A program made the translations under genes and the position numbers. The notes below the pieces were generated by a model. The model ran no database searches, had not been told where the DNA came from, and saw nothing but the letters and a program-made list of their open reading frames with translations. This document shows, piece by piece, positions 4,686 through 59,941 of a DNA stretch of 64,000 nt (its first letter is position 1; every line of letters starts with the position of its first letter). The stretch is taken from contig NC_018691.1 of assembly GCF_000300005.1 (NCBI RefSeq), positions 3,658,001 to 3,722,000 on the forward strand, written 5' to 3'. This stretch comes from Alloalcanivorax dieselolei B5 (lineage in GTDB: Bacteria; Pseudomonadota; Gammaproteobacteria; Pseudomonadales; Alcanivoracaceae).

Positions 4686-4756
4686 GATTCGCTGGCAAGC
4701 CAGCTTCCCACACAGGGGCCACGAAGCCGCTGTGGGAAGCGAGTTCACTCGCGAAC
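4686..4756. repeat. REP-like inverted pair, copy 1
   Basis: Two GC-rich half-elements face each other: GATTCGCTGGCAAGCCAGC...TCCCACA at 4686-4713 and TGTGGGAAGCGAGTTCACTC...GCGAA at 4731-4756. Each half is itself a small hairpin. This is the layout of Pseudomonas-type REP doublets found between genes. A diverged copy of the same layout lies at 60894-60967. The rest of the spacer 4530-4847 holds only the terminator above; I see no gene in it. Confidence 0.75.
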
Positions 4757-4847
4757 AGCGAGCATCCCCGGTATCAAACCACGATTGGCAAGCCCCGGAT
4801 TACCTGCCAACATCCCTGCCTGAACGGCCCAATCCCCGGAGGTTGTG

Positions 4848-5342: not shown

Positions 5343-5393
5343 CGCGAACTGCGGTACTCTGATTCTCAAGCGATTGTACTCACAGGACGCGCC

Positions 5394-7352: not shown

Positions 7353-8356
7353 TGCTCGCGGCGCCAGCGCTTGGGGCCGACACCGGCCCATTGACGAAAC
7401 GCCCGGGTAAAAGCGCTGTGCTCGGAGTAACCGAGCAGCGCCGCCACTTCCGTCAGTTCCAGGCGGCCGTCCGCCAGGTATTCCCGGGCCATCTGGTAAC
7501 GCACCCTCTGCAACACGGCCTGGAACGTCTCCCCCTGTTCCGCCAGACGGCGTTGCATGGTACGTGCACTGACATGATGGCGTTCCGCCAGAGCTTCCAG
7601 CGTCGGCCGCCCTTCGCGCATCAAACGCACCAGGTCGGCGTCATAGGGCGACCCCGCGCGCGGCTGACGTTCCAGTAACGACTGCGCCTGCCGGTCCAGG
7701 ATATCCACCAGGCCCGGATCCGGCGCGCCCAGCGGCAGCGTCAGATAGGTCAGCGGTATCCGCAACACCGTCCATGCGCAATCGAAGCGCACTTCCGCGC
7801 CGAAAAACGCCCGATAAGGCGCCGGATCCACCGGCTCGGGGTTAACGAAATGCACCGCCTCCACCGGCAAATTCCGACCCACCAGGTTGCGAATGAACTG
7901 CACCACCGCCGCCACGCCGGTCTCATCCACCAGAGCACCCGGACGACCGCGTTCCACGCCCCAACGCACCTCCAGACTATTGCCCACCGTGGCCACCCGG
8001 GCTGGATTCACGTCATAAACCAACCGGTGATACCGCTCCAGCCGCGCCAGCGCTTCGCCCAGTGTGCCGCAGTGGGACACCACATAGCCAAGCACATCGA
8101 AATGCCGGGCGGTGATGGTACGCGCCACCGCCAGCCCCAGGGCCGGCTCATCCAGGTGCTGGCTGGCAATCTCAAGACTGTGCCGCCAGAACGCCAGCGG
8201 CACTTTCTCCAACCCATCCTCGGCCAGCACCGTCGGCGCGCCCAGCAACGCCTCGGCCTCCACCCCCTGGCTTTCCAGGTAATCGTAAAGCAACCGCACA
8301 TAGGCGGCGGCCACATAATTTTCGGCGGAAGCCGTCATTGTCGTATCGTCGATCAT
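7349..8356 (-). CDS. AraC-family transcriptional regulator
   Basis: A 335-residue regulator with an N-terminal arabinose-binding-like (PF12625-type) ligand domain and a C-terminal double helix-turn-helix: LEALAERHHVSARTMQRRL and the family signature VAALLGYSEHSAFTRAFRQWAG. Its ATG overlaps the stop of the upstream Na/Pi cotransporter gene in an ATGA, so the two are translationally coupled, and it may respond to a solute linked to that transporter. The ligand is unknown. Confidence 0.88.
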   Translation of the reverse strand: MIDDTTMTASAENYVAAAYVRLLYDYLESQGVEAEALLGAPTVLAEDGLEKVPLAFWRHSLEIASQHLDEPALGLAVARTITARHFDVLGYVVSHCGTLGEALARLERYHRLVYDVNPARVATVGNSLEVRWGVERGRPGALVDETGVAAVVQFIRNLVGRNLPVEAVHFVNPEPVDPAPYRAFFGAEVRFDCAWTVLRIPLTYLTLPLGAPDPGLVDILDRQAQSLLERQPRAGSPYDADLVRLMREGRPTLEALAERHHVSARTMQRRLAEQGETFQAVLQRVRYQMAREYLADGRLELTEVAALLGYSEHSAFTRAFRQWAGVGPKRWRREH

Positions 8357-9918
8357 GGTATCGGTGCCTGTGGCTCGGGATCATCGAGCAGAGCACGGAG
8401 ATGTACCGTGGCCCGCCACCATTGTTCCAGAAAGCGGCGGGACAAACTCAAATCCTGCAAGGCCAGATCCAACGTATAGCGTGTCAGCGCGCCGTCCATG
8501 GCGCGTTGCATCAAAGCGTCCTTGACCTGCTCGTAGGCGAAACGCAACGGCTCCGTGGGATCACCCCCGCGCCGCAGTTGCTGGTGCATTTGCTCGAACC
8601 AGGCCGCCAGTACCGCCATGGCGACCTCATGATCCGGCTGCCGGATCATCTGGCGGCCATGCTCGTTCATCCCGGCCAGGGCATCTTCCATGTTGGAAAG
8701 GTTCAACTGGATCCGCCAGCCGATACGAAAGCCATTCATCTGTTCCTCGGTGAGCTGTTGCCGACCGGCCATGGCCAGAAAATCACCCAATCCCGCCAGC
8801 AGCTGGCGCCGCTCGGCGATGCCCTTGAGACGCTCGTCATGAGGCCGCGGCAAGCCACCGAGCGCATCCGGATAGCGCGCAAGGATCCGTTCGATCTCCC
8901 TGGCCAGCGCCGTCCTTGCCGCGTCCGGCAAATCCGCCACGTTACGATCCAGGAACTGCAACTGCGCCGTGGCCCGTTGACGTTCCTTGAAGCGCGTCAG
9001 CAAAAAACGCGTCAGCACCGGCTCCAATGGCCACATCAGCACTATGCCCAAGGCATTGAACGCAGTATGAAACAGAGCCAGCTGCCCCGGCGGCGCCAGC
9101 CCCCAACCACTGGCGACAGCCACAACCAGATCGACGCCGGGCCCTAGTAACGCCAACGCGACCAGCGCGGTCAGCAGATTGAACAACACATGGGCCACCG
9201 CCAAACGCCGGGCCTGAACGGTGGCACCGAGGATGGACAGCAGCGCCGTGGACGTGGTGCCCACGTTGGCGCCGATCACCAGCGCCGCGGCGCCGTCGAA
9301 ATCGATCACGCCACCGGCCAGGGCGGTGAGCACCACCGCCAGGGCGGCACTGGAAGACTGCATCAAGGTGGTCAGCAACACGCCTATTCCCACCATCAGC
9401 ACCAACGGCTGGCCCGCCATGCCCAGCGACAGCCGCTCTCCCATCTGGCCAAAGCCGGAGGACAGCACCTGGATACCCATGAACAGCAAGCCGAATCCCG
9501 CCAAGGCCATGCCAAGGCTGCGGTAACGGTCAAAAGGGGCGAACACGCGCAGCAGCGCACCCACCCCGATGATGGGCAAGGCGAACAGATCGATCTTGAA
9601 GCTGAAGCCGATCATCGCCACCAGCCACGCCGTCAGAGTGGTTCCCAGATTACTGCCGAAAATCACCCAAACCGCCCGCTCGAAGCGCAACAATCCGGTA
9701 TTGACGAACCCCAGGGCCGCCACGGTGACAGCGCTTGAGGATTGCACCATGACGGTCAGCAAAGTGCCCGACACCAGGCCGCGCCACCGGCTCGAGGTCC
9801 AGGAGGACAGCAGCCGCTCCAGGGAGGGTCCGGCGGCGACCCGCAAGCCTTCGGTGATCAACCACATGCCCAGCAAGAACAGTCCCAGACCGCCCAGGCT
9901 GGCGCTTATATACCCCAT
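8353..9918 (-). CDS. Na+/phosphate cotransporter family protein with PhoU-like tail
   Basis: A 521-residue membrane protein of the Na/Pi-cotransporter II-related (NptA/YjbB) family. Two inverted transport repeats each contain the hallmark QSSSA motif (VMVQSSSAVTVAALG and LMQSSSAALAVVL). The last ~200 residues are hydrophilic and helical, like PhoU. It may carry phosphate or another anion in either direction. It is the first gene of a two-gene operon with the AraC regulator. The 174-bp gap before the divergent membrane hydroxylase gene shows no feature I can name. Confidence 0.88.
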   Translation of the reverse strand: MGYISASLGGLGLFLLGMWLITEGLRVAAGPSLERLLSSWTSSRWRGLVSGTLLTVMVQSSSAVTVAALGFVNTGLLRFERAVWVIFGSNLGTTLTAWLVAMIGFSFKIDLFALPIIGVGALLRVFAPFDRYRSLGMALAGFGLLFMGIQVLSSGFGQMGERLSLGMAGQPLVLMVGIGVLLTTLMQSSSAALAVVLTALAGGVIDFDGAAALVIGANVGTTSTALLSILGATVQARRLAVAHVLFNLLTALVALALLGPGVDLVVAVASGWGLAPPGQLALFHTAFNALGIVLMWPLEPVLTRFLLTRFKERQRATAQLQFLDRNVADLPDAARTALAREIERILARYPDALGGLPRPHDERLKGIAERRQLLAGLGDFLAMAGRQQLTEEQMNGFRIGWRIQLNLSNMEDALAGMNEHGRQMIRQPDHEVAMAVLAAWFEQMHQQLRRGGDPTEPLRFAYEQVKDALMQRAMDGALTRYTLDLALQDLSLSRRFLEQWWRATVHLRALLDDPEPQAPIP

Positions 9919-10092
9919 GTGCCTTCTCTCTGACCGTGTCTCGCGCCCTTGTCGTCATTTGTCAAAAAAGAGTCCGGCTGCGTCAAGCGTTTTCTGCGCC
10001 ATCAGGGAACAATCTTGAGGTCCGTCAATCTTCCCGGACCGTCCCGCCGCCCACCATGGCGGTGGTGGCGACCGTTTTTTCGCGAGGTCCCC

Positions 10093-10986
10093 ATGCTCGA
10101 GGCTTTACAACATCTGGACTGGCGCACCCTGGTATTACCCGCAATGGTGCCGATCTTCATCGCTGTGTTATTGGCGGAGTGGACCCGCTTTCGCGGTCGC
10201 GGCCGCTTCCTGCTGCGCGACACCGCTGCCAGTATGGGGTTGGGGGCCCTGTATATGGTGTTCGATACGCTGGTCACCGTGACCCTGGTGGCGCTGCTGT
10301 TCAACTGGGCCTACCAGCACCGGCTGTTCACCGTCAGCATGACCCCGCTCACCGGAGCGCTGCTGTTCGTGCTTCTGGAGTTCTTTTATTACTGGTTTCA
10401 CCGCGCCAGCCATCGCATCCGCTGGTTCTGGTCGGCCCATGTGGCGCACCATTCCAGCCGCTATATGAACTTCTCCACCGCCATGCGGCAAAGCGCCCTG
10501 TACAGCCTGGCCGGCAACTGGATTTTTTATATTCCGCTGGCGTTTCTCGGCTTCGAACCGGTGTGGGTATTCTTCATGCTCACGGTGAATCTGGCTTATC
10601 AGTACTTCATCCATACCCAATGGGTTGGCAAGCTGCCGCGCCCCATCGAGTTTGTGTTCAATACGCCCAGCCATCACCGCGCCCACCATGGCCGCAATCC
10701 CGAATACATCGATCGCAACTATGGTGGCATTGTGATCCTGTATGACCGGCTGTTCGGCACTTTCGTGGAAGAGCAGGAAACAGCGCCGGTGGAGTACGGC
10801 ATTACCCGTCCGGTGGACAGCTTCAATCCGGTCACATTGACGGTGCACGAGGCCCGCGACATGTTTCGGGATGCGCTGCGGCCCGGCCCGCTAAGGCAAC
10901 GCCTGAAACATTTCTGGGCGCCGCCGGAATGGCAGCGCCCGGAACAGGAAGAGGAAAGCGCACTCAACCGCTCCCCGGCAGATTAA
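10093..10986 (+). CDS. Sterol desaturase/fatty acid hydroxylase superfamily protein
   Basis: A 297-residue integral membrane diiron oxygenase. The diagnostic histidine clusters are present: HRASH, HVAHHSSRYMN and SHHRAHHGRNPEYIDRNYGG. Four to five hydrophobic segments surround them (the first near MVPIFIAVLLAEW). Bacterial relatives hydroxylate or desaturate lipids; the substrate here is unknown. The ATG at 10093 follows GCGAGGT; the frame stays open upstream but that part is not protein-like. The end overlaps the convergent dctM gene by 23 bases. Confidence 0.85.
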   Translation: MLEALQHLDWRTLVLPAMVPIFIAVLLAEWTRFRGRGRFLLRDTAASMGLGALYMVFDTLVTVTLVALLFNWAYQHRLFTVSMTPLTGALLFVLLEFFYYWFHRASHRIRWFWSAHVAHHSSRYMNFSTAMRQSALYSLAGNWIFYIPLAFLGFEPVWVFFMLTVNLAYQYFIHTQWVGKLPRPIEFVFNTPSHHRAHHGRNPEYIDRNYGGIVILYDRLFGTFVEEQETAPVEYGITRPVDSFNPVTLTVHEARDMFRDALRPGPLRQRLKHFWAPPEWQRPEQEEESALNRSPAD

Positions 10987-12298
10987 GCAGAAACAGCGAC
11001 AGGGCCGGGACCATCACCAGGATGGCGATACGAATCACATCCGCGTACAGGAACGGGACAATACCCCGGCTCACCGTGCCCAGAGATGTATTGACGCTGT
11101 ACTTCTGCACGATGAACAGGTTCATGCCCATAGGCGGCGTGATCAGACCGATCTCCACCACCATCAGAGCGAGGATACCGAACCAGATCGATTTTTCGGT
11201 ATAGGTGAGATCGAAGAATTCCAGGTTGACCACGATCGGATAAAAGATCGGCACGGTGAGCAGAATCATGGACAGGGAGTCCATCACGCAGCCCAGCAGC
11301 AGATAGATGGCCAGAATCGAGAGCAGTACCACGAACGGCGCCAGCCCACTGTCGGCGACCCAGGACGCCAGTTCCGCCGGCATCTGACTGAGCGCCAGAC
11401 CACTGTTGAGCAGATCGGCGCCGACCACCACCAGATAGATCATGGCGGTGGCCTCGGCGGTGCCGATCAGGCTTTGATACAACCCTTTCCAGCGCAAGCC
11501 ACCGCGTACCACCGCGAACGCCCCGCAGGCGGCGGCGCCGATGGACGCCGCCTCGGTGAGGTTGGCCCAGCCTCCGTAGATACCGAAGATCACCACGATG
11601 AAGATCAACAGCACCGGAGACACCTCCAGCAACGCCCGCCACCGTTGAGGCCAGCCGGCCTTGTCTACCCTCGGCACCGACGCCATGGTACGTACCGCCA
11701 CCAGGCGGATCACCACCAGATAACCGAACATCGCCACCAGACCAGGAATCACCGCCGCCATGAACAGCTTGGCGATGGACTCCTCGGTGAGCACCGCATA
11801 GATGATCAACGGTACCGACGGCGGAATCAGAATGCCCAGAGTACCAGCGGCCGCCACCGTCCCGGCGGCCAGTTTGGGCGGGTAGTGATGTTTCTCCAGC
11901 TCCGGTAACGCCACCTGGCTCATGGTGGCGGCGGTGGCCAGGGACGAGCCGCAAATAGCACCGAAACCGGCACAGGCACCGGCGGCGGACATCGCCAGAC
12001 CACCGCGCCAATGACCAATGAAAGCCGCCGCCGCTTTGAACAGGGCGCGCGACAGACCGCCGTGAATGGCGAACTGCCCCATCAACACGAACAGTGGAAT
12101 CACCGCCAGGTCGTAATTGGAAAACCGGGCGTAAACCAGATTGTTGATGGTGAACAGCAGCGCCGTGGTGTCACCGTGATTGACGATCAGATAGCAGGCC
12201 ACGCCGCCCAGCAGCATGCCCACGCCCACGTGCACGCGCAGCGCCAGAATCAGCAGCACACCGCCGAGTACCCAGAGTCCGATTTCCATACCGCTCAT
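10964..12298 (-). CDS. TRAP transporter large permease (DctM type)
   Basis: A 444-residue DctM protein with about twelve membrane helices (start MSGMEIGLWVLGGVLLILAL). Family blocks are visible: GFGAICGSSLATAATMSQVALPEL, GTLGILIPPSVPLIIYAV and LITPPMGMNLFIVQ. It is the Na+-driven transport subunit fed by the periplasmic DctP. Its ATG overlaps the stop of the small-permease gene (ATGA). It belongs to dctPQM, which diverges from an aromatic hydroxylase gene and probably imports the aromatic acid used by the hpa pathway; that substrate is inferred. Confidence 0.93.
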   Translation of the reverse strand: MSGMEIGLWVLGGVLLILALRVHVGVGMLLGGVACYLIVNHGDTTALLFTINNLVYARFSNYDLAVIPLFVLMGQFAIHGGLSRALFKAAAAFIGHWRGGLAMSAAGACAGFGAICGSSLATAATMSQVALPELEKHHYPPKLAAGTVAAAGTLGILIPPSVPLIIYAVLTEESIAKLFMAAVIPGLVAMFGYLVVIRLVAVRTMASVPRVDKAGWPQRWRALLEVSPVLLIFIVVIFGIYGGWANLTEAASIGAAACGAFAVVRGGLRWKGLYQSLIGTAEATAMIYLVVVGADLLNSGLALSQMPAELASWVADSGLAPFVVLLSILAIYLLLGCVMDSLSMILLTVPIFYPIVVNLEFFDLTYTEKSIWFGILALMVVEIGLITPPMGMNLFIVQKYSVNTSLGTVSRGIVPFLYADVIRIAILVMVPALSLFLLNLPGSG

Positions 12299-49547: not shown

Positions 49548-50573
49548 ATGTTCTTAACCACCGCCAGAGCGCTGCTTGCCATATCCACCCTTGTTTGTGC
49601 TCTGACCTCCATGGCGGACGGCCGTCTGCCGATTTCCTTCGTTCTCGATTGGAAACTTCAGGGCGTGCACTCGTGGTACTACCTGGCCGAGGACCGAGGC
49701 TACTTTGATCGGGAAAACATCGAACTGAACATCGATCAGGGCGATGGCTCCGCCGCCACCGTCACCAAGATCATGGCGGGAACCTATCAGGCCGGTTTCG
49801 GTGACGTTAACGCGATTATCCAGAACGCGGCCCGGCGCCCGGAAAGCACACCGGTGATGGTCTACATGGTTTATAACCGGGCGCCCTTCGCCATAATGAC
49901 GCTGGCTGACGGCCCTATTCACAGGCTCGAGGACCTGCAGGGTGCCCGCCTGGGATCACCGGCCGGCGGCGCGGCAATGCGCATGTTCGACACCCTGGCC
50001 CGTCTCAACAACCTGGACGCCGACAGCGTCGAGTGGGTCAACATGGCTCCCAACCTCCAGGAACAGATGTTGCTACGCGGCGAGGTGGATGCCTCCGCGG
50101 TATTCTCGGTGACCAGCTATGTAAACCTGCTGGCTCAGGGCAAGGACCCGGAGCAGGACGTGCGCTGGTTTCATTACGCCGACCACGGCGTGGCCCTGTA
50201 CGGTAACGGCGTGATGGTCTCACCCGAACTGATTGAGCAGCATCCGCAGGCCGTGCACGGGCTGGTAAGGGCAATCAACCACGGTATTCGCGATGCCATC
50301 GCCGATCCGGACGCGGCCATCGAAGCATTGGCCAAACGGGAGCCGCTGATCAACAAGGCCCTGGAAAAACAGCGCCTTCTTTACACCCTGAAAACCGTGA
50401 TGCTGACGCCGGAGGTCAGTGACAACGGCCTGGGCCAAACGGATCCCGAGCGTCTGGCCCGATCTATCGAGCAGGTTGCCGACGTATTCGAGCTACCCGC
50501 CAGACCCAGCGCCAGTCGCGTTTTTACCGATGAATTCCTGCCCCCCAGGGCGCAACGTCAGGCCGGACAATGA
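49548..50573 (+). CDS. ABC transporter binding protein, NMT1/THI5-like (receptor 1)
   Basis: A 341-residue periplasmic receptor with a signal peptide (LLAISTLVCALTSMADG). The mature start PISFVLDWKLQGVHSWYYLA and IDQGDGSAATVTKIMAGTYQAGFGD are hallmarks of the family that binds pyrimidine precursors (ThiY), taurine or related small ligands. It is a paralogue of the receptor at 53949. No permease or ATPase is in its own operon; it is coupled by an ATGA overlap to the amidohydrolase gene, which suggests that its ligand is that enzyme's substrate. Confidence 0.88.
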   Translation: MFLTTARALLAISTLVCALTSMADGRLPISFVLDWKLQGVHSWYYLAEDRGYFDRENIELNIDQGDGSAATVTKIMAGTYQAGFGDVNAIIQNAARRPESTPVMVYMVYNRAPFAIMTLADGPIHRLEDLQGARLGSPAGGAAMRMFDTLARLNNLDADSVEWVNMAPNLQEQMLLRGEVDASAVFSVTSYVNLLAQGKDPEQDVRWFHYADHGVALYGNGVMVSPELIEQHPQAVHGLVRAINHGIRDAIADPDAAIEALAKREPLINKALEKQRLLYTLKTVMLTPEVSDNGLGQTDPERLARSIEQVADVFELPARPSASRVFTDEFLPPRAQRQAGQ

Positions 50574-52051
50574 ACACGCCCGCTCGTTGGCATTGCGAAT
50601 GGCTGCTGCCCGCACCGGGACAGCGCCCGGCCCGGCGGGGCGCCCGCTTGCAATGGAACGGCGCCAACCTGACCTCGTGGCGGAATCGGGCCGTCGATGA
50701 CCCCGTTCCCCCTCGGGGACTGGTGCTGCCGGCACTGGCCAATGCCCATGACCATGCCCGCGGCTTTCGCAACGCCAGCCTTGGCGCCTTCGGCGAACCC
50801 CTGGAAAGCTGGTTGCCATTTCTTGGCTGGATGCCGCCAATGCCGCCTTATCTGTGCGCGGCCACTTCCCTTGCCCGGTCCGCACGCCACGGCGTGGTCA
50901 ACGTCCTGGTCCATTACACCCGCGTGCAAGGCGGCCTGCCTTACCTGGAAGAGGCTCGGGAGGTGGGCCGTGCCGCCCGCGATGTCGGCGTGCATATCGG
51001 CTTCGCCCTGGCGCTAAGGGATCGTCAGTCTCTCGCCTATGCTCCGGACCACACCGTGCTGGCGCGGTTGTCCCCCGCGATTCGCGACGCTATCCGTCGC
51101 CAACTCGCCAGCCCGGCGCTGCCCGTGGCCGAGCAGTTGGCACTGGTCGAGGAAGTGGCTGCCGCCTGCGCCGACTACCCAATGACGGTGCAGTATGGCC
51201 CTACCGGCGTGCAGTGGTGCTCCAACGCTTTACTGGAAGGCGTGGCGCAGGCGTCCTCCGATCAACAAAGACCAGTGCACATGCACTTGCTGGAAACCAG
51301 GCGGCAAAGACAATGGGCCGATCACGCCTTCCCCGGCGGCATCGTCCACCATCTGGACCAACTGGGACTGCTCACTCCCCGGCTGACCCTGGCGCACTGT
51401 ACCTGGTGCCGGCCGGAGGAACTGGCCCTGCTGGTGGAACGGGGGGTCACCATCGCCGTCAACACCAGTTCCAATCTGCTGTTGGGCTCCGGTATCGCGC
51501 CGTTTGAGGAGATGCAGCGTCAGGGCTGCCGGGTGGCCATGGGGCTGGACGGTCTGGCACTGGACGAAGACGACGACGCCTGGCGCGAATTACGTCTGAC
51601 CTGGGCTCTGCATCGGGGAAGCGAATTCCGGCCGGCGCTGGACGCCGCCACCCTCTGGCGATTCGCCGCCGTCGACGGCCGGCGCGCGGTCACCGGCGAA
51701 CAGGATGGTGGCGGCGTGATCGACGACGGCGCTCCGGCGGACCTGATCATGCTGGACTGGGACGCTCTCAACGACGACGGACTCTGGCCCGACCACGACC
51801 CCTGGCCGTTGATACTGGCGCGGGCCAGTGGCCGCCATATCGACAAGGTAGTGGCCTCGGGGCGGCTGATTGTCGACCAGGGCCAGGTACTGACCGTGGA
51901 CGAAACCGCGCTCACCGACGAATTACATCGACGCGCGCGGCATGCCATTGACCGTGACAGTGCCGGGATACAGGCATGGCGCCGGACTCTCACCACATTC
52001 AGCCGCGAGCTGGAAGCCTTCTATCACCATCAGGGACATTGCTGTGGCTGA
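50570..52051 (+). CDS. TRZ/ATZ-type amidohydrolase
   Basis: A 493-residue metal-dependent hydrolase of the amidohydrolase superfamily. The metal and catalytic residues are visible: NAHDHARGF (HxH, about residue 60), VHMHLLETR, LTLAHCTWC and MGLDGLALDEDDD. Relatives deaminate or dechlorinate N-heterocycles (guanine, cytosine, s-triazines, 5-methylthioadenosine). The combination with an NMT1-type receptor in the same operon points to a heterocyclic amine. Exact substrate unknown. Confidence 0.85.
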   Translation: MNTPARWHCEWLLPAPGQRPARRGARLQWNGANLTSWRNRAVDDPVPPRGLVLPALANAHDHARGFRNASLGAFGEPLESWLPFLGWMPPMPPYLCAATSLARSARHGVVNVLVHYTRVQGGLPYLEEAREVGRAARDVGVHIGFALALRDRQSLAYAPDHTVLARLSPAIRDAIRRQLASPALPVAEQLALVEEVAAACADYPMTVQYGPTGVQWCSNALLEGVAQASSDQQRPVHMHLLETRRQRQWADHAFPGGIVHHLDQLGLLTPRLTLAHCTWCRPEELALLVERGVTIAVNTSSNLLLGSGIAPFEEMQRQGCRVAMGLDGLALDEDDDAWRELRLTWALHRGSEFRPALDAATLWRFAAVDGRRAVTGEQDGGGVIDDGAPADLIMLDWDALNDDGLWPDHDPWPLILARASGRHIDKVVASGRLIVDQGQVLTVDETALTDELHRRARHAIDRDSAGIQAWRRTLTTFSRELEAFYHHQGHCCG

Positions 52052-52056
52052 GATGG

Positions 52057-52962
52057 TCAGGCCAACAGTGCCGCCGGCTCGGCCAGGTGCCATTTCAGAT
52101 GTTCCGCGAAACTGTACGCGGCCACCGGCAAGCGGCGGCCGCGCAGCTGTGCCAGCAGCAGTTTGCCGCGGGGGAAGCCGTGATCTTCAATTTCCCGTGC
52201 CACCAGATCACCGCCGTCGGTGAGTGCGCCCACTGAAATCTGGAACGACACTGCTTGTTCGCGATGCAGAAAGCCACGCAGAAATTCAAAGGAATTACTC
52301 TGCACCGCCGGCGTGAAACGCACCGAGCTGCGGGCCAGAAAGCGATCCAGCATTTCTCGCCCGGCGGTGCCCCTTCCCGCCAGAGCCAATGGCCAGTCGA
52401 CACAATCCCTGAGCCGTAGTGACGGTTTCTCCACCAACGGATGGGTATGGTGCATCCACGCCACCAGCTTCTGCTCGTAGGAACCGAGTATCTGCAGATC
52501 CGGCTCCGGCTGCAGGTTGAAAACCAGCGCCAGGTCGCTGTCGAAGTCACGCAGTACGTCCAACGCGTGCAGATGATCAGCAACGTTCACTTCGAATTCC
52601 ACCGCCGGGTGCGCTTCACGAAACGCCTGCACCGCATGGGGCAGAAACACCGGCGCCAGCGCCTGGCTGCACACCAGCCGCACCAGGCCACGCCGCAGTC
52701 CGGACAGATCCTCGATATTGGACCGCACGCGCTCCAGCTCCGCCGTGCGATCACGGATATAGGCGACGAACAGCTCCCCGGCGGCGGTGAGGCGCATCCC
52801 CCGCGGCAGCCGTTCGAAGATCGGTGCTCCCAGTTCGTCCTCCAGGTCCTGAATCCGGCGAATCACCGCCGAGGGGGCCACATGCAAGCGCTCCGCTGCC
52901 TGCCGCACCGATCCCACCCGTGCCACCTCATCCACGTAACGAAGAAACCGAAGGTGATTCAT
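52057..52962 (-). CDS. LysR-family regulator of the heterocycle locus
   Basis: A 301-residue LysR protein: winged helix FLRYVDEVARVGSVRQAAERLHVAPSAVIRRIQDLED, then an effector domain. The ATG at 52962 follows CAGGG; the frame extends further but without a ribosome site. It is divergent from the isochorismatase-fold gene and convergent with the amidohydrolase gene, so it is well placed to control both units. Confidence 0.88.
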   Translation of the reverse strand: MNHLRFLRYVDEVARVGSVRQAAERLHVAPSAVIRRIQDLEDELGAPIFERLPRGMRLTAAGELFVAYIRDRTAELERVRSNIEDLSGLRRGLVRLVCSQALAPVFLPHAVQAFREAHPAVEFEVNVADHLHALDVLRDFDSDLALVFNLQPEPDLQILGSYEQKLVAWMHHTHPLVEKPSLRLRDCVDWPLALAGRGTAGREMLDRFLARSSVRFTPAVQSNSFEFLRGFLHREQAVSFQISVGALTDGGDLVAREIEDHGFPRGKLLLAQLRGRRLPVAAYSFAEHLKWHLAEPAALLA

Positions 52963-53019
52963 AGCCCTGCCCGTTTGCTGTGATGGTCGATCACGCAAGC
53001 AGGTTTAGTGCCATATACC

Positions 53020-53036
53020 GTTGCCAAAATCGCAAC
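53020..53036. promoter_or_regulatory. Inverted repeat in the LysR/hydrolase divergent region
   Basis: GTTGC-N7-GCAAC at 53020-53036 is a perfect two-arm dyad of LysR-site size, 58 bp from the LysR start and about 90 bp before the divergent hydrolase gene. It is a candidate binding site for the LysR product. Confidence 0.45.
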
Positions 53037-53123
53037 AGTTAAGCGCCCAAAAAGCAATAAAAGAGAACAGCCTATGGCACGTGGCGTGCTTGGTTACTGG
53101 CGTTGAATACAACGTGAAGAGCG

Positions 53124-53906
53124 ATGCCGGACATGACCCAGCCCCCGACCACCAGGATGCCCCCCCTTAGCCAACAATGGCATGACACCGAACAGGGCGT
53201 CAGCCTGATCCGATTTCCCCTGCCGGCCCGCCCCATTACGATGCAGGCGCAGCCGGAATGCATCGAATTGGACCTCAACCGTACCCAGTTGGTGGTGGTC
53301 GACATGCAGAACGATTTCTGCCACCCGCAAGGCTGGTTCGGTATCCAGGGAGTCGATATTTCACCGATGCGCTCACCGCTGACCACCCTGATCCCGCTGG
53401 TGGACGGCTGGCGCGCACTGGGCTACCCGGTGCTGTGGCTGAATTGGGGGATTCGTCCAGACTGCGCCAATCTCAGCCCCACCCAATTGCACAAGGGACG
53501 GCGTCTGCCCGACGGTATTGGTTACGGCGACGCCCTCCCCGGCCAGGACAGCCGCGCCGTGGTGGCCGGCGATTGGGGCGCGCGCAACGTCGATGAACTG
53601 CCGCCGCGGGAAGGCGATTTGTTGATTCACAAACATCGCCTGAGCGGATTCTGGGACAGTGAGCTGGATTCGGTGCTGCGTCAGCGTGGCATCACCACTT
53701 TGCTGTTCGCCGGCATCAACACCGACCGCTGCGTGTTCAGCACACTGCAGGACGCCGCCTTTCTTGGTTACGACTGCGTGCTGCTCGAAGACGCGTGCGG
53801 CACGCCCTCTCCACAGTACGTCAGCGACGCCATTTATTTTCTTGTTCGCCAATTACACGGCTTCGTCGGCCGCGCCACGCATCTGCTCGACGCCTGCGCA
53901 CCGTGA
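53124..53906 (+). CDS. Isochorismatase-fold cysteine hydrolase
   Basis: A 260-residue hydrolase of the isochorismatase/nicotinamidase superfamily. The Asp-Lys-Cys triad is visible: VVVDMQNDFCHP, LLIHKHRLSGFWDSEL and FAGINTDRCVFSTLQDAAF. Close functional relatives are RutB-type ureidoacrylate amidohydrolase, biuret hydrolase and N-carbamoyl amidases, which cleave the open-chain ureides left after ring opening. The start at 53124 is the first plausible ATG; the ribosome site is weak. First gene of a seven-gene run ending with the LOG protein. Confidence 0.87.
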   Translation: MPDMTQPPTTRMPPLSQQWHDTEQGVSLIRFPLPARPITMQAQPECIELDLNRTQLVVVDMQNDFCHPQGWFGIQGVDISPMRSPLTTLIPLVDGWRALGYPVLWLNWGIRPDCANLSPTQLHKGRRLPDGIGYGDALPGQDSRAVVAGDWGARNVDELPPREGDLLIHKHRLSGFWDSELDSVLRQRGITTLLFAGINTDRCVFSTLQDAAFLGYDCVLLEDACGTPSPQYVSDAIYFLVRQLHGFVGRATHLLDACAP

Positions 53907-53948
53907 CACCGGTTTTCATTCCATAACCGCCAACGTTAAGGATTTGCC

Positions 53949-54977
53949 ATGACATCGTTTACCCGTCTGCTTCGCTACTGCCTTATGGCCAGCCTGCTGG
54001 TCAGCGCCGCCCTGGCCGGCGCTGATACCCGTTTGAAGATGGTGCTCAACTGGAAATACGAAGGCTCCCAGGCCTGGTTCTTCCTGGCCAAGGAAAAAGG
54101 TTATTTCAAGGAGGAAGGCATCGATGTGGTGCTCGACCAGGGCGAAGGCTCCGCCGCGTCCATCGGCAAGGTCGCCAGCGGCGCCTATGACGTCGGCTTC
54201 GGCGACACCAACGCCATCATCGAGGCCGCCGCCACCCATCCGGATCGCGCCCCGGTGGCGGTCTACATGATCTACAACACGCCGCCGTTCGTGATCGCGG
54301 TAAAAAGCGGCAGTGACATCAAAACACCGGGCGATCTGTCTGGTAAAACCCTGGCCGGCCCAGCCAACGACGGCGCGCTGAAACTGTTCCCGGCGCTGGC
54401 CCGCCAGGTCGGCCTGGACACCGATTCGGTGAACATTCTCAACGTGGCGCCGAACCTGCGCGAACAAACGCTGCTGCGTGACCGTGCCGACGGCATCTTT
54501 GGTTACCTCAATACGATCCGCTTCTCCGCCAAACTCGTGGGCATGAACCCGGACCAGGACCTGCGCTTCATCCGCTACAGCGACCATGGTCTGGATCTGT
54601 ATTCCAACGCGGTGTTCTTCTCCCAGGACATCATCAACGAAAAACCGGAAGTCGTGCACGGTTTCGTGCGGGCGCTGAACAAAGCGATCAAGGAAGTGAT
54701 CGCCGATCCGGACGCCGGCGTCGACTACGTGCTGAAGCAGGAACCACTGCTGAACAGGGAAGTGGAGAAAGCCCGTCTTCTGGCCACTCTGCAATGGGAA
54801 ATGAACCACCCGGAAATCGGGAAAATCGGCCTGGGCGCGGTGGATCAGGCCCGTCTCAAACGCAGCATCGATATCGACGTGCAAGCGAAAAACCTGCCGC
54901 GCGTCCCCACCGTGGAACAAATCTTCGACAGCCGTTTCCTGCCTGCCGAGGAAGATCGTATTCATCAATTGAAATGA
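53949..54977 (+). CDS. ABC transporter binding protein, NMT1/THI5-like (receptor 2)
   Basis: A 342-residue periplasmic receptor with a signal peptide (LMASLLVSAALAGADT). Blocks LKMVLNWKYEGSQAWFFLAKEKG and LDQGEGSAASIGKVASGAYDVGFGDTNAI match its paralogue at 49548 along the whole length. This one is in the operon with the ATPase and permease, so it is the primary receptor. The shared GFGD-x-NAII block suggests related ligands. Confidence 0.9.
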   Translation: MTSFTRLLRYCLMASLLVSAALAGADTRLKMVLNWKYEGSQAWFFLAKEKGYFKEEGIDVVLDQGEGSAASIGKVASGAYDVGFGDTNAIIEAAATHPDRAPVAVYMIYNTPPFVIAVKSGSDIKTPGDLSGKTLAGPANDGALKLFPALARQVGLDTDSVNILNVAPNLREQTLLRDRADGIFGYLNTIRFSAKLVGMNPDQDLRFIRYSDHGLDLYSNAVFFSQDIINEKPEVVHGFVRALNKAIKEVIADPDAGVDYVLKQEPLLNREVEKARLLATLQWEMNHPEIGKIGLGAVDQARLKRSIDIDVQAKNLPRVPTVEQIFDSRFLPAEEDRIHQLK

Positions 54978-54984
54978 GGACGGC

Positions 54985-55776
54985 ATGAAGCTCAATCTGC
55001 AAGGAAAAAACGTCATCATCACCGGCCCGGCCAAGGGCATGGGCCGGACCGTCACCCTCGCGTTCGCCGCCGAAGGGGCCAATCTGGCGCTTACCGGCCG
55101 GGACATCGCGGCGATTGAACCGGTCGCCGAGGAAGCCCGTGCTCTGGGCGTGACCGCCACGGTACTGCGCTGTGACCTGAGCATCGGTGCGCAAGTGAAC
55201 ACGATGGTCGCTGAAGCGGAAAAAACACTCGGCCCCATCGACGCCCTGATCAATGTCGCCGGCGGCTCCGGCCCGATCGGCAAGACCGGCTGGGAGACCA
55301 CCCAGGAAGAATTCGACGACATCGTCCGGATCAATATGACCGGCTGCTTCAACACCATGCGCGCGGTGCTGCCCGGCATGATCGCCAACAGCGGCGGCAA
55401 GATCGTCAACGTCGGCGGCACCTTCGGTATGCACGGCCGCGCCGGGCGTATGGCCTATTCCGCCTCGAAATGGGGACTGCGCGGCATCACCAAGAGCTTC
55501 GCCATCGAAGCCGGCCCGCACAACATCAACGTCAACTGCGTGGCACCGGGCATGGTCGACGGCCCCCGCTTCCGTGACAAAGTCTGCGCCAACATGGCCG
55601 CCGCCCAGGGCATTTCGCTGGAACAGGCGATGCAGCGTCACGCCGAGGACTATGCCCTGCGGCGTGTCACTACCGACCAGGACGTGGCGCACGCCTGCCT
55701 GTTCCTGGCCAGCGAGGTGTCACGCCAGATCACCGGAGTGGACCTGCCGGTGGATGGCGGCTGGGCCGCCTTATAA
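54985..55776 (+). CDS. Short-chain dehydrogenase/reductase
   Basis: A 263-residue classical SDR. The nucleotide motif is VIITGPAKGMGR (with P in place of the usual first G spacing residue), NVAGGSG is the NNAG-type motif, and the catalytic Tyr-Lys are in MAYSASKWGLRG. The C-terminus GVDLPVDGGWAAL is typical. It would oxidise or reduce an alcohol/ketone in the same pathway as the hydrolases. Ten bases separate it from the next gene. Confidence 0.9.
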   Translation: MKLNLQGKNVIITGPAKGMGRTVTLAFAAEGANLALTGRDIAAIEPVAEEARALGVTATVLRCDLSIGAQVNTMVAEAEKTLGPIDALINVAGGSGPIGKTGWETTQEEFDDIVRINMTGCFNTMRAVLPGMIANSGGKIVNVGGTFGMHGRAGRMAYSASKWGLRGITKSFAIEAGPHNINVNCVAPGMVDGPRFRDKVCANMAAAQGISLEQAMQRHAEDYALRRVTTDQDVAHACLFLASEVSRQITGVDLPVDGGWAAL

Positions 55777-55786
55777 GGAGAAGAGT

Positions 55787-57259
55787 ATGAAAACGGTAGA
55801 TACGGTTATTCGCGGCGGCACCGTGGTGTCGTCCCAGCGGATAGTGAAAGCCTCCGTAGCCATCGATAATGGTCTGATCGTCGCCGTCGGCGATGATGCG
55901 GTTATGCCCGACGCACGGGAAACGGTGTCCGCCGAAGGGCTCTATGTGTTGCCCGGCGCCATCGACAGCCATGTCCACTTCCGCGATCCAGGGTATCCGC
56001 ACAAGGAAACCTGGAAAACCGGCTCGGCGGCGGCCGCTTGCGGCGGCGTCACCACGGTGTTCGACATGCCCAACACCAACCCGCCCACCGGCACGTTGGA
56101 AGCCCTGGCGATGAAACTGAAGGCGGCGGAAAGTTCCTATGTGGACTTCGGCATCCACGCGCTGTTCGACGACAGCACAGTGGCAACCCTCATCGACCTG
56201 CTCGACGGCGGCGCCACCAGTTTCAAGGCGTTCGTCGGCAACACCTTCGGCAATCTGCCCGCCCCCAGTGACGGCGCTCTGCTGGAAGGCTTTGAAACAC
56301 TGGCGCCGCTGGGTATTCGTACCACCGTGCACGCGGAAAATTCCTCAATCATGGCACGGCGCCAGAAACATCTGCGTGACGCCGGCCGTACCGATCCCCT
56401 GGCGCATCTGGCGGCGCGGCCGGCGGTTGCTGAAATCGAGGCCATCGGCCGCATCATCACTCTGGCGGAGTGGACTGGCGCACGGGTCCACATCGCCCAC
56501 CACAGTGCCGCGGATTCCCTTTATCTGTTGCGTGAAGCGAAACGGCGCGGCGTCGATGTTACCGCCGAAACCTGTCCCCAGTATCTGTTGCTCAATACCG
56601 TCAATATGCTCGATCTGGGCGGTCTGTTAAGGGTCAATCCACCGGTACGCGAACCACGCCACAACGAGCCGTTATGGCGGGCCCTGCTCGACGGCGTGAT
56701 CGACATGATCGCCACCGACCACGCTCCCCATGCGCCGGAGGAGAAAACCCGCGACGATATCTGGGAATGCGACTGCGGCTTTCCCGGCGTGGAAACGCAG
56801 ATGCCGCTGATGCTCACCGAAATCAATGGCGGCCGCGCGGCGATCACCGACTATGTGCGCTGGAGTGCCGAAGCCCCGGCCCGGGCCTGGGGTTTGCAGG
56901 GCATCAAAGGGGTGATCGCCCCCGGCGCCCATGCCGATATCGTCCTGGTGGACATGGGCCGCAGCGAAAATCTCTCCCAGTACCGCCTGCAGTCAATCGG
57001 CAAGATTTCCCCCTGGCACGACCGGCAAGTCAAAGGCTGCCCACTGCACACCATGGTGCGCGGTCGTTTCGTGGTGCGTGACGGTGAGCTGCTGGAACAC
57101 ACCGCGGGTTGGGGCCAATCGATAAAACCGGTGCAACGAATGCCGCCCGCGCGGGTCGCTCACCCGGACACCACCACCCGTGCCATCACCGAGCCGGGCG
57201 CGGCGGAGCGGGAAGCCAGAGCCACTGCCGGGGGAGCATCATGCAAGATACACCGCTGA
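55787..57259 (+). CDS. Dihydroorotase/allantoinase/hydantoinase-like cyclic amidase
   Basis: A 490-residue binuclear-metal amidohydrolase that opens cyclic ureides. Metal ligands: DSHVHFRDPGYPHKE (HxH), the carboxylated Lys in GATSFKAFVG, VHAENS, HIAHHSAADS and MIATDHAPHAPEEK. The ATG at 55787 after AAGGAG is chosen; the frame extends upstream over the SDR gene. It is 40-60 residues longer than most relatives at the C-terminus, and this tail overlaps the ATPase gene by 19 bases. pyrC-type biosynthetic function is unlikely given the operon; a catabolic role fits. Confidence 0.88.
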   Translation: MKTVDTVIRGGTVVSSQRIVKASVAIDNGLIVAVGDDAVMPDARETVSAEGLYVLPGAIDSHVHFRDPGYPHKETWKTGSAAAACGGVTTVFDMPNTNPPTGTLEALAMKLKAAESSYVDFGIHALFDDSTVATLIDLLDGGATSFKAFVGNTFGNLPAPSDGALLEGFETLAPLGIRTTVHAENSSIMARRQKHLRDAGRTDPLAHLAARPAVAEIEAIGRIITLAEWTGARVHIAHHSAADSLYLLREAKRRGVDVTAETCPQYLLLNTVNMLDLGGLLRVNPPVREPRHNEPLWRALLDGVIDMIATDHAPHAPEEKTRDDIWECDCGFPGVETQMPLMLTEINGGRAAITDYVRWSAEAPARAWGLQGIKGVIAPGAHADIVLVDMGRSENLSQYRLQSIGKISPWHDRQVKGCPLHTMVRGRFVVRDGELLEHTAGWGQSIKPVQRMPPARVAHPDTTTRAITEPGAAEREARATAGGASCKIHR

Positions 57260-58059
57260 TCGAACTGTCCCAGGTTACCGTTCGCTACGGCGATCCGGAG
57301 AGCGGCACCCTGGCTCTGGCACAGACCAGCCTGCGCATCGACCGCGGCGACTTTGTCGCCCTGGTCGGCCCCAGCGGCTGTGGCAAATCCACCATTCTGA
57401 AACTGGTGGCGGGATTGCTCACCGCCAGTTCCGGAGGCGTGCTGCTGAACGGCCGCGAAGCCAACTACAAAGGCATCGGCATCGGTCTGGCGTTTCAGAA
57501 TCCGACCATGATGCCCTGGCTGACGATCCGCGAAAACATCATGATCCCGTTGAAAATCGTCGAGCCATACCGCAGCCAGTATGCGCGCAAAAAGAAAGGC
57601 GAATTCGCGGAAAAAGCCGATGCCATGCTGGCCCGGGTCGGGCTGGCCGGCCTCGGTGACAAACGGCCCTGGGAACTGTCCGGCGGCATGTTACAGCGGG
57701 CCTCGCTGTGCCGGGCACTGATCCACGAGCCGCAATTATTATTGCTCGACGAGCCCTTTGGTGCCCTCGATTCATTCACCCGGGAGGAACTCTGGGGCAT
57801 TCTCCAGCAGTTGTGGATGGACACCGGCTCCACAGTCCTGCTGGTTACCCACGATCTGCGCGAGGCGGCGTATCTGGCCAACCGGGTTTGCGTCATGTCG
57901 TCCCGGCCCGGGCGCATCCTGGAAGATTGTCCGGTGCCCTTTCCTCGCCCACGCAGCGAGGAAACGGCTTACCAACCGGAGTGCGTCAGTCTGATTCACA
58001 GCCTGCGCAAACAGATTGCCAACGCCCGCGCCGACGAACCCGCCCAGGAGAGCGCATGA
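57241..58059 (+). CDS. ABC transporter ATPase, NitT/TauT type
   Basis: A 272-residue ATPase: Walker A VGPSGCGKST, Q-loop GLAFQNPTMMPWLT, signature LSGGMLQRASLCRAL, Walker B LLLLDEPFGALDS, and H-loop VTHDLREAAYL. It drives the permease encoded next. The ATG at 57241 follows GGGGGAGC and lies inside the 3' end of the cyclic amidase gene. Confidence 0.93.
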   Translation: MQDTPLIELSQVTVRYGDPESGTLALAQTSLRIDRGDFVALVGPSGCGKSTILKLVAGLLTASSGGVLLNGREANYKGIGIGLAFQNPTMMPWLTIRENIMIPLKIVEPYRSQYARKKKGEFAEKADAMLARVGLAGLGDKRPWELSGGMLQRASLCRALIHEPQLLLLDEPFGALDSFTREELWGILQQLWMDTGSTVLLVTHDLREAAYLANRVCVMSSRPGRILEDCPVPFPRPRSEETAYQPECVSLIHSLRKQIANARADEPAQESA

Positions 58060-58838
58060 TGAAACCGCTGAATACCCAACAACGCCAGCGGCTGCTGTCG
58101 GTCATGGTACTGATCGGTTTTTTTCTGTTCTGGGAACTGGCCTGCCTGGCGTTCCAGGTTTCCGATCTGGTGTTGCCACGGCCGACACAAATCTTCCTGG
58201 TCCTGTTTGAAAAAATGCCGCTGCTCTGGCCACACACGGTGCAAACGCTCTACACCACGGTGCTGGGTTTTGCCCTGGGAGTGATCAGCGGCGTACTGCT
58301 CGGCGTCATGGTCGGCTCCTCGCGGCTGGCCTACAATGTGGCGTATCCGCTACTGGTGGGATTCTCCAGTATTCCCAAGGTGGCCGTGGTGCCGATTTTC
58401 GTGGTCTGGTTCGGTGCCGGCACGGTCCCGGCGGTGCTCACGTCGATGATCATCAGTATCTTCCCGGTGGTGGTCAACGTGGCCACCGGTCTGGCCAGCA
58501 CCGAGCCGGAATTCGAGGATGTGCTCAAGGTACTCGGCGCCAGCAAAAGAGATATTCTCTGGAATGTCAGTCTGCCGCGGGCACTGCCCTACTTGTTCGC
58601 ATCCCTGAAAGTCGCCATCACCCTGGCTTTCGTCGGCACCGTTCTGTCCGAGTCGGTGGCCGCCAACAAGGGCATCGGTAACGTCATGATGATCGCCAGC
58701 GGCAACTTCGACGTCGCCCTGGTGTTCGCCGGGCTGATCATTCTGGCGGTAATGGGCGTGTTGCTGTACGCGCTTTCCGCTTACGTCGAGCACCGCGTTA
58801 CCGGCTGGGCCCATCGCAAAACCGAGAACATGACATGA
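58056..58838 (+). CDS. ABC transporter permease, NitT/TauT type
   Basis: A 260-residue permease with six helices and the EAA loop FEDVLKVLGASKRDILWNVSLPRALP. Two successive ATGs (58056 and 58059) follow CAGGAG; the first overlaps the ATPase stop. With the ATPase and the receptors at 53949 and perhaps 49548 it forms the only complete importer of this locus. Confidence 0.92.
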   Translation: MMKPLNTQQRQRLLSVMVLIGFFLFWELACLAFQVSDLVLPRPTQIFLVLFEKMPLLWPHTVQTLYTTVLGFALGVISGVLLGVMVGSSRLAYNVAYPLLVGFSSIPKVAVVPIFVVWFGAGTVPAVLTSMIISIFPVVVNVATGLASTEPEFEDVLKVLGASKRDILWNVSLPRALPYLFASLKVAITLAFVGTVLSESVAANKGIGNVMMIASGNFDVALVFAGLIILAVMGVLLYALSAYVEHRVTGWAHRKTENMT

Positions 58839-59449
58839 ACCAGAACACTCAGACATTACAACGCATCGCCGTATTCTGCGGCTCCAATTTTGGCACCCAC
58901 GATGACTACCGGGAACAGGCGGCGGCCCTCGGCACACTGCTGGCGGAGCAGGGTATTACCCTGGTTTACGGCGGCACCAGCAAAGGGCTGATGGGGGTGG
59001 CGGCGGACGCCGCCCTCGCCGCCGGCGGAGAGGTGTTTGGTGTCATCAATCGCCGCTTGTTCGAACGCGGCCATCTCCATCCCCGGCTCTCAGGCCATGA
59101 AGTGGTGGACAATATGCGCCAGCGCAAAGCGCGCATGGCGGAACTGGCCGACGCCTTCATCGCTCTGCCCGGCGGCCTGGGAACCCTGGAGGAGTTGCTG
59201 GAAGCGGCAACGCTGAGCCAGCTGCGTGATCACGTCAACCGCCCCAGCAAGGCCTGTGGCGCGCTGAATATTCGCGGCTTCTATTCGCCATTGCAGGCGT
59301 TACTGAGCCATGCCGCGGCCGAAGGGTTCATGCCGGCCGCCCACCTGGATCTCATCGCCGTGGCGGATACGCCGGCGGCGTTACTGGCCGCGCTGGAGCA
59401 GTGGGTTCCGCCGGACGTCAACAAATGGATCGGCCAGCCCGGCTCCTGA
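58835..59449 (+). CDS. LOG-family nucleoside 5'-monophosphate phosphoribohydrolase
   Basis: A 204-residue LONELY GUY-type Rossmann enzyme with the PGGxGTxxE motif (ALPGGLGTLEELLEA) and the N-terminal VFCGSNFGTHDDYREQA. LOG enzymes release a free base from a nucleoside monophosphate (cytokinin riboside monophosphates in plants; AMP, CMP and others in PpnN-type bacterial relatives). The ATG overlaps the permease stop (ATGA), so it belongs to the heterocycle operon. There it might free a base for the amidohydrolases. That role is inferred. Confidence 0.9.
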   Translation: MNQNTQTLQRIAVFCGSNFGTHDDYREQAAALGTLLAEQGITLVYGGTSKGLMGVAADAALAAGGEVFGVINRRLFERGHLHPRLSGHEVVDNMRQRKARMAELADAFIALPGGLGTLEELLEAATLSQLRDHVNRPSKACGALNIRGFYSPLQALLSHAAAEGFMPAAHLDLIAVADTPAALLAALEQWVPPDVNKWIGQPGS

Positions 59450-59460
59450 TCCGGGGCCGT

Positions 59461-59488
59461 CGGAGGGCACGCTAGCCGCGCCCTTCCG
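59461..59488. terminator. Hairpin between converging LOG and DUF3830 genes
   Basis: CGGAGGGC (59461-59468) pairs with GCCCTTCCG (59480-59488) with a single bulge, 12 bases after the LOG stop, in an 81-bp gap between convergent genes. The T-run is absent. Confidence 0.4.
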
Positions 59489-59530
59489 GATTTCGCGCTG
59501 TCGCCAGTGACGACCGCGTTTTTCTGACCG

Positions 59531-59941
59531 TCACGCTTTCTCGAAAACGATATCCTGCGCTCCTTCCCACAGCACTTTCTGCCCCAGCGCGCGCAAATTC
59601 TCCTTGCCCTGGACAATGCTGAGAAAATGATTTCCGGCCAATTGGCCCATTTGGCTGGAGAAGCAGCAACTGCCATAGGCCATAATGATCTCGGTTTCGC
59701 TGTAGCCGCCGGGGTAGAACAGGATGTCACCCACCGAGGGATGGCTGGTGTGGTTCTCGAATGCCACGCCCAACTGCCAGTCACCGAGCGGAATCCAACA
59801 GCCCTCACCGCTCCAACGCACATGAATCAGGCGCTGACGGTAAGGCAGCAGCGCCTCGAACGCCGCCACCGTGTTCGGCGCATCGGCCTGGGTTTCAGCG
59901 ATAAACGTAAAGCCGCCGGCGGTGATACGAATCAAAGACAT
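59531..59941 (-). CDS. DUF3830 family, cyclophilin-like protein
   Basis: A 136-residue protein matching the DUF3830 cyclophilin-like fold by eye: FIAETQADAPNTVAAFEALLPY at the start, then WSGEGCWIPLGD, NHTSHPSVGDILFYPGG and a C-terminal helix. Relatives are often encoded near NMT1-type transporters and amidohydrolases; the function is not established. It faces the LOG gene. The association with the heterocycle locus is by proximity only. Confidence 0.75.
   Translation of the reverse strand: MSLIRITAGGFTFIAETQADAPNTVAAFEALLPYRQRLIHVRWSGEGCWIPLGDWQLGVAFENHTSHPSVGDILFYPGGYSETEIIMAYGSCCFSSQMGQLAGNHFLSIVQGKENLRALGQKVLWEGAQDIVFEKA

Follow-up and report, generated by a model that had tools for sequence, protein, structure and literature searches.

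The locus considered here raises the question of which compound is handled by a group of 11 genes (counting an ABC transporter core as two) at positions 49548-59941 of a 64,000-nucleotide stretch of the Alloalcanivorax dieselolei B5 genome (C1:3658001-3722000 of a single contig of 4,928,223 bases; this whole stretch is called the window). In a sequence-only reading, these genes had been regarded as a possible undescribed pathway for a cyclic ureide or pyrimidine-like compound. Scans against Pfam and NCBIfam families recovered every gene named in that reading, each in its place, including two NMT1/THI5-type receptors (R1 and R2) and the single ABC core proposed to go with them. The other genes encode a TRZ/ATZ-type amidohydrolase (TRZ), a LysR-type regulator, an isochorismatase-fold amidase (ISO), a short-chain dehydrogenase/reductase (SDR), a cyclic amidase, a LOG-type phosphoribohydrolase and a DUF3830 protein. 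We found that this gene set is conserved beyond chance as a module, and that in one relative its last gene encodes a proven cyanuric acid hydrolase. With a probability of roughly 0.55, we interpret the module as a system scavenging nitrogen from small nitrogen-rich rings of the s-triazine or oxidised-nucleobase kind.

We scanned 84,980 species genomes with an alignment of R2 and retained the best 80 of 333 confirmed loci, which together with two plasmid records and the window gave 83 loci. Fifty-nine of these, the window included, comprised at least 20 kb of sequence and are referred to as full loci; the other 24 were under 20 kb. A gene was scored as present when found within about 10 kb of R2 (14 kb in two plasmid stretches), using identity thresholds of our own choosing. 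Among the relatives, one AtzC-like, one FmdA-type and one flanking BiuH-type gene were subjected to library scans, the others being assigned by identity. Several loci are closely related (those of Variovorax, Tardiphaga and Aureimonas, as well as L047 of Alloalcanivorax balearicus, a near-twin of the window), so that the counts do not represent independent events. A core composed of LysR, R2, SDR, cyclic amidase, ABC ATPase and permease recurred in the 83 loci, which span alpha-, beta- and gammaproteobacteria; the gene-neighbourhood survey thus bore out the coherent module that had been suspected. In the full loci, R2, ABC, permease and SDR were each present in 59 of 59, LysR in 58 and the cyclic amidase in 57. 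The additions to this core are ISO or an FmdA-type amidase, a pair formed by R1 and a deaminase, DUF3830 and sometimes LOG. Their counts were R1 45, TRZ 45, AtzD-type 40, ISO 37, DUF3830 34, FmdA-type 15 and LOG 12 in the 59 full loci, and R1 53, TRZ 48, ISO 56, AtzD-type 51, DUF3830 41, LOG 18 and FmdA-type 15 in all 83. The release of a base from its nucleotide, previously thought to open the pathway, is therefore a weak candidate for a defining step, and LOG was rejected as a core function on the basis of its 18 occurrences.

A plasmid search with R2 retrieved annotated relatives. In Skermanella rosea the genes are arranged in the order LysR, R2, SDR, an amidase labelled AllB, ABC, permease, R1, amidohydrolase, ring-opening amidohydrolase, FmdA-type amidase and DUF3830. 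Azospirillum ramasamyi has a similar set that lacks the ring-opening amidohydrolase; on four other plasmids weaker R2 relatives adjoin an ABC core without the rest of the set. The module is rare, a strong R2 match being found in 2 of 398 sampled genomes of the phylum.

The link between the module and a defined substrate came from a genome (G400) that matches Azorhizobium caulinodans. Its module has the order ISO-R2-SDR-cyclic amidase-ABC-permease-R1-TRZ-AtzD-type gene, with no LysR called in the stretch examined, and its proteins are 49-71% identical to those of the window. The last gene of this module encodes all 353 residues of PDB entry 4nq3 with no change. This entry is AZC_3892 of A. caulinodans, an assayed cyanuric acid hydrolase (PMC4051656, PMC3758960) that is inhibited by barbituric acid (PMC4051656). 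For AZC_3203, another family member of A. caulinodans, no activity on cyanuric or barbituric acid was detected (PMC3758960); a second AtzD-family gene of G400 (C1:3662169; L133/L139) probably corresponds to it.

An AtzD-type gene was found in or beside the module in 50 of the 83 loci, and in one more (L110) 4.6 kb away in a separate cluster. The sequence-only reading had reported no AtzD-like gene and had set the locus apart from cyanurate gene sets. The first statement holds for the window itself and fails for the genome, which has such a gene at C1:785553, and for the 50 loci; the second could not be maintained, since the 50 loci have such a gene and one gene of this kind encodes the proven enzyme. 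The nearest called gene upstream of the AtzD-type gene (n = 50) was the cyclic amidase in 27 cases, TRZ in 14, the permease in 5 and LysR in 3, with none called in 1. In the AtzD tree (rooted for drawing only), these positions are distributed over at least two separate groups, and deep groups occur within the module. The AtzD-type gene thus appears to have joined the module repeatedly, which argues for a functional tie. As a background, any AtzD-family gene was present in 14 of the 398 sampled genomes, among them both of the genomes with a strong R2. When we searched the genomes of 20 of the 32 loci without a nearby AtzD gene, 13 had a family member at another place, with at least 51% identity in 9 cases.

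We also examined whether the module proteins retain the residues of cyanuric acid hydrolases. R188, T310, R314, G334, G335 and the Ser-Lys dyads were present in 52 of 52 AtzD-type sequences, consisting of 51 from the survey (with the separate L110 copy), chosen by identity, and that of G400, chosen by a motif filter. The signature positions are those of PMC3758960, with the numbering transferred from AtzD to 4nq3 by us. Outside the module, 12 of 12 AtzD sequences carried the signature; this is a filtered set, 6 of 18 having failed our motif filter and been dropped. Barbiturases have Gln at the R188 position (PMC4051656), and both the signature residues and the tree led us to reject a barbiturase identity for the module proteins.

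No cyanuric acid hydrolase gene was found within the window cluster. The AtzD-family gene at C1:785553, present as a single copy, lies outside the window together with BiuH and AtzF, the three within 12 kb. The source genome thereby encodes both a biuret hydrolase (BiuH, 426 bits against a cut-off of 370) and an allophanate hydrolase (AtzF, C1:782582, 785 bits against a cut-off of 511); a second BiuH/TrtA-like protein scored 224 bits, below the cut-off. The LysR protein beside AtzD is 46% identical to that of the window, and the ABC transporter of this cluster matched a putative B6 transporter best, with every score below the cut-off. Because AtzD, BiuH and AtzF occur in the same genome, a single cell could complete the breakdown of any cyanuric acid that the window module produces, and the two clusters may work together. 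An open reading frame of 227 residues near AtzD, BiuH and the TrtA-like gene (L023:10708-11391) had no Pfam or NCBIfam match; it may encode the carboxybiuret decarboxylase TrtB or may not be a real gene.

The observations are the gene content, its conservation, the motif residues and the finding that one gene product is identical to a proven cyanuric acid hydrolase; from them we infer, as follows, in what order the steps occur, which reactions the SDR, TRZ, cyclic amidase and amidase catalyse and, cyanuric acid excepted, what the substrates are. Two related receptors would share one ABC core. In a first branch, a ring bearing an amino group would enter by way of R1, and an amidohydrolase, either TRZ-type or AtzC-like, would exchange that group for oxygen, yielding cyanuric acid or a near analogue. 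Cyanuric acid hydrolase would open this product to carboxybiuret/biuret, which BiuH and allophanate hydrolase would finish, these last steps being assigned in the source genome to the separate cluster. In a second branch, R2 would import a carboxylated ring, the SDR would alter its oxidation state, the dihydroorotase-like cyclic amidase would open it, and ISO (the FmdA-type amidase in other species) would split the open ureido acid to give ammonia.

In the window, the first branch would correspond to R1 (49548..50573, + strand; PF09084, 122 bits) and to TRZ (50570..52051, + strand; PF01979, Amidohydro_1, with NCBIfam matches below cut-off only), the probable deaminase of the R1 ligand. The gene after R1 was TRZ in 42 cases and AtzC-like in 5, together 47 of 53, in agreement with the deamination step proposed earlier, and a single full locus had R1 without a deaminase. 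Residues H60, H62, H239, E242, H276 and D327 of TRZ were present in 47 of 47 sequences. The AtzC-like gene of L058 scored 173 bits to AtzC versus 125 to cytosine deaminase, and shares 69-98% identity with the other four. Since AtzABC convert atrazine to cyanuric acid (PMC13054789) and AtzC catalyses the third hydrolytic step (PMC4577212), cyanuric acid is the product of AtzC. The receptor assigned to the second branch, R2 (53949..54977, + strand; PF09084, 130 bits), gave a predicted model with a pLDDT of 91, whose nearest folds are 4nmy (thiamin), 3ix1 (formylaminopyrimidine) and Thi5.

The cyclic amidase (55787..57259, + strand) exceeded the cut-off of the broad pyrC_multi family (314 bits versus 279) and fell below those of AllB (335 versus 358) and D-hydantoinase (315 versus 393), its nearest solved proteins being an L-hydantoinase and an allantoinase. 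The metal residues together with R66, N96 and H315 were present in 71 of 71 sequences, as was an invariant Cys in a DCGFPG motif. The same trio occurs in two dihydroorotase-like proteins from the genome of L126, L168 (above the family cut-off) and L170 (below it). In alignments with five hydantoinase or allantoinase structures, the Arg was absent from all and the full trio from each; an Asn aligns with N96 in three allantoinases after a one-residue insertion, and a His with H315 in the L-hydantoinase. The combination of a metal site with Arg, Asn and His thus makes all 71 proteins predicted dihydroorotase-like enzymes, and the cut-offs and the trio led us to reject a plain allantoinase or hydantoinase identity. 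We take the equivalents of R66, N96 and H315 to be the carboxylate-binding residues of dihydroorotase. No passage on these carboxylate-binding residues was found in PMC11818841. The dihydroorotase motif is missing from a pyrC_multi match elsewhere in the source genome (C1:83340, L151), which did not serve as a model.

ISO (53124..53906, + strand) scored 137 bits to RutB (cut-off 378) and 122 bits to BiuH (cut-off 370). Asp60, Lys170, Cys203, Arg172, Asn199 and Arg202 were found in 54 of 54 sequences, Arg202 adjoining the Cys and Arg172 being placed as in RutB, and the position of BiuH Lys145 is occupied by Leu, Phe or Tyr in the alignment. In BiuH, Lys145 and Val174 lie in the region of these invariant Arg residues (PMC5806882). 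Both scores and the residue differences led us to reject BiuH and RutB identities for ISO. Full loci contained ISO only (37), the FmdA-type amidase only (15), neither (7) and never both; the Fisher test for this exclusion gave p = 4e-9, a value that is overstated since the loci are not independent. As the two amidases belong to different families and are mutually exclusive, they probably do the same job. The residues of ISO and of the cyclic amidase point to a carboxylated ureide as the probable ISO substrate, and suit the ring opening and subsequent hydrolysis of an open ureide suggested by the sequence-only reading. Within a sample of 13 genomes of the genus, a close ISO orthologue was found in two, that of the window and G006.

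The SDR (54985..55776, + strand; PF13561) has an unusual active site. Y158, K162, T146, K100, R155 and R195 were present in 77 of 77 sequences and G145 in 76 (one Cys); by alignment, G145 takes what we assume to be the usual Ser position of the family. The several invariant Arg and Lys residues suggest that its substrate is anionic.

Several observations weigh against the assignment of the module to triazine-like rings. The tie with AtzD is one-sided: 12 of the 14 sampled genomes with an AtzD-family gene have no strong R2, and of 132 plasmid records with such a gene, one is known to carry the module. A nearby AtzD gene is missing from 19 of the 59 full loci, and 7 of the 20 module genomes searched gave no AtzD-family match at E 1e-20. 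Halomonas and Vreelandella are among these seven, and both loci retain R1 and TRZ. Unless the draft genomes are incomplete, the module core can therefore work without AtzD. Furthermore, TRZ is distant from the known triazine enzymes (67 bits to AtzA), a deaminase without a called R1 was found in 5 of the 59 full loci, and just 27 of 54 ISO sequences have a Gln opposite Gln215 of BiuH.

These points required that other explanations be considered. In an orotate-type pathway, which we regard as rather unlikely, the SDR would reduce orotate or 5-aza-orotate (oxonate), the cyclic amidase would open the resulting dihydro ring, and ISO would hydrolyse the N-carbamoyl dicarboxylate so formed, AtzD being an accessory. 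The trio shared by the 71 cyclic amidases with L168 and L170, and lacking in the five hydantoinase and allantoinase structures, is in line with this scheme, as are the two invariant Arg near the ISO active site and the capacity of BiuH to hold N-carbamoyl-aspartate (PMC5806882). Oxonate as a substrate would in addition tie the R2 branch to triazines. Such a pathway leaves the TRZ or AtzC-like partner of R1 unexplained, and accounts for the frequency of AtzD genes only with the aza form as substrate; moreover, we know of no orotate reductase that is an SDR. Among the papers listed by literature searches on oxonate and orotate, none dealt with their bacterial degradation. Breakdown of the thiamin pyrimidine (HMP) or of another pyrimidine, such as a cytosine-like base, by way of an AtzD-type enzyme of changed specificity appears improbable to us. 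It would account for the fold of R2, nearest to binders of thiamin and formylaminopyrimidine, for the relationship of the AtzC-like enzyme to cytosine deaminase, and for genes, presumably URC1 and URC4 of uracil catabolism, that adjoin the module at 4 of 83 loci. The cyanuric acid signature is nevertheless intact in all 52 AtzD-type sequences, and the proven hydrolase of the module has cyanuric acid as its substrate and barbituric acid as an inhibitor (PMC4051656).

The use of allantoin or a hydantoin, as implied by the public annotation "allantoinase AllB" of the Skermanella relative, seems to us no more probable than the breakdown of a pyrimidine. This annotation and the nearest solved proteins of the cyclic amidase speak for it, as may the Polaromonas plasmid pE10SP1, for which a ureidoglycolate lyase is listed together with a cyanuric acid hydrolase and a dihydroorotase-like amidohydrolase (PMC6015842). 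However, the cyclic amidase scored below the AllB and D-hydantoinase cut-offs, its R66/N96/H315 pattern is unlike those proteins, and no allantoicase or ureidoglycolate gene is annotated in the Skermanella and Azospirillum stretches. No Polaromonas appeared among the 40 listed of the 132 plasmid records with an AtzD-family gene. The AtzC-like, AtzD-type and TRZ-type genes at module loci could also be taken as signs of a recently assembled pathway for industrial s-triazines (herbicides, melamine), an explanation that we find very hard to sustain. The module proteins of the relatives, the twin L047 excluded, are 41-82% identical to those of the window, gene order is much conserved over three classes, and the AtzD sequences of the module fall into deep groups in the tree. 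An origin in the herbicide age was rejected because this identity range and these deep groups represent a divergence too great for decades.

Our preferred interpretation, nitrogen scavenging from s-triazine or oxidised-nucleobase rings, calls for a natural source of such compounds. Oxidised purines are a plausible one, since cyanuric acid and triuret can arise when uric acid is oxidised (PMC7948467). A more specific proposal, which we offer as a tentative and still doubtful extension, is that the module is the pre-industrial home of cyanuric acid hydrolase and salvages nitrogen from oxidised guanine and urate products. R1 and the deaminase would then serve the amino (guanine) series, and R2, the SDR, the dihydroorotase-like amidase and the new-type amidase the oxo carboxylated (oxonate- or alloxanate-like) series.

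The remaining window genes are the LysR-type regulator, divergent from the main operon (52057..52998, - strand; PF00126 and PF03466), the ABC ATPase (57241..58059, + strand; assigned by family scan), the permease (58059..58838, + strand; PF00528) and two less constant members. The optional LOG-type phosphoribohydrolase (58835..59449, + strand) matched TIGR00730 (172 bits versus a cut-off of 96) and remained under the cut-off of the cytokinin LOG equivalog (103 bits versus 300). The frequent DUF3830 protein (59531..59941, - strand; PF12903, 99 bits versus a cut-off of 26) gave a model with a pLDDT of 78, the best of five (the others 50-65), whose nearest fold is the cyclophilin-like 3kop; literature searches found no paper mentioning DUF3830. 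Promoter and terminator scans gave a signal near the level of shuffled sequence.

Other genes were noted around some of the loci. At L107, L114, L123 and L125, a GTP cyclohydrolase II-like gene (PRK07198) and a DUF1688 gene, the presumed URC1 and URC4, adjoin the module. Several kb off the module, L054, L064, L072, L078, L111 and L112 contain BiuH-related isochorismatase genes, of which the only one tested (L054:4140-5000) exceeded the BiuH cut-off with 416 bits, together with a gene of cluster c18 related by position to the ABC ATPase of L023. In Variovorax an FAD-dependent monooxygenase lies upstream of the module (L060:5791-7608, with cluster members in L064, L066, L072 and L078); that of L060, the only one tested, belongs to the PRK07538 family and has a weaker match to the urate hydroxylase HpxO. 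The source genome also contains a second uncharacterised module (L022, C1:4318500-4338000, about 2289-11208), whose isochorismatase is 45% identical to the ISO of the window. It further comprises a porin, a CocE/NonD hydrolase, an ABC ATPase, a permease, an FAD-binding oxidase, a creatininase-family protein and an NMT1 receptor, the families being named after their counterparts at a parallel locus, L029; other genomes in the genus contain sets that are similar in part.

Our literature searches found no description of the module among the papers that they listed, which is thus apparently undescribed, as the sequence-only reading had supposed. AZC_3892 occurs in two structural papers, and PMC6015842 assigns genes for a cyanuric acid hydrolase and a dihydroorotase-like protein to the same plasmid but does not regard them as parts of a module. 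Since a proven cyanuric acid hydrolase belongs to this module in a second bacterium, the module may show the role of these enzymes before industrial triazines. The position of this hydrolase as last gene of a module kept in three proteobacterial classes provides it with concrete partner enzymes and two receptors, whose ligands can be screened directly for the natural precursor. The module may also give functions to DUF3830, to an unusual SDR and to a new type of amidase.

Compared with known systems, the module resembles ThiXYZ-type pyrimidine importers in the fold and closest structures of R2; it differs in having two receptors and no thiamin genes among its members, R2 being about 21-24% identical to the two nearest proteins. 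It shares with the Rut pyrimidine pathway an amidase of the RutB/BiuH group with an Arg at the RutB position, but ISO lies under the RutB cut-off and has an Arg beside the catalytic Cys, and no flavin monooxygenase is among the listed module genes. Dihydropyrimidine dehydrogenase and beta-ureidopropionase were not found among the window genes in the family scans, no genome-wide search having been made. The cyclic amidase has the HxH, Lys, His, His and Asp metal residues of the dihydroorotase/allantoinase/hydantoinase family, but it passes the broad family cut-off and none of the equivalog cut-offs compared, and it adds the invariant Cys of DCGFPG to the trio that it shares with L168. The module also resembles the cyanuric acid/biuret pathway (AtzD, TrtB, BiuH, AtzF), through the AtzD-type gene at 50 of the 83 loci and the separate AtzD, BiuH and AtzF cluster with its related LysR in the source genome. 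To that pathway the module, without AtzD in the window, adds an SDR, a dihydroorotase-like amidase, a different isochorismatase-fold amidase, DUF3830 and an NMT1-type ABC importer with two receptors.

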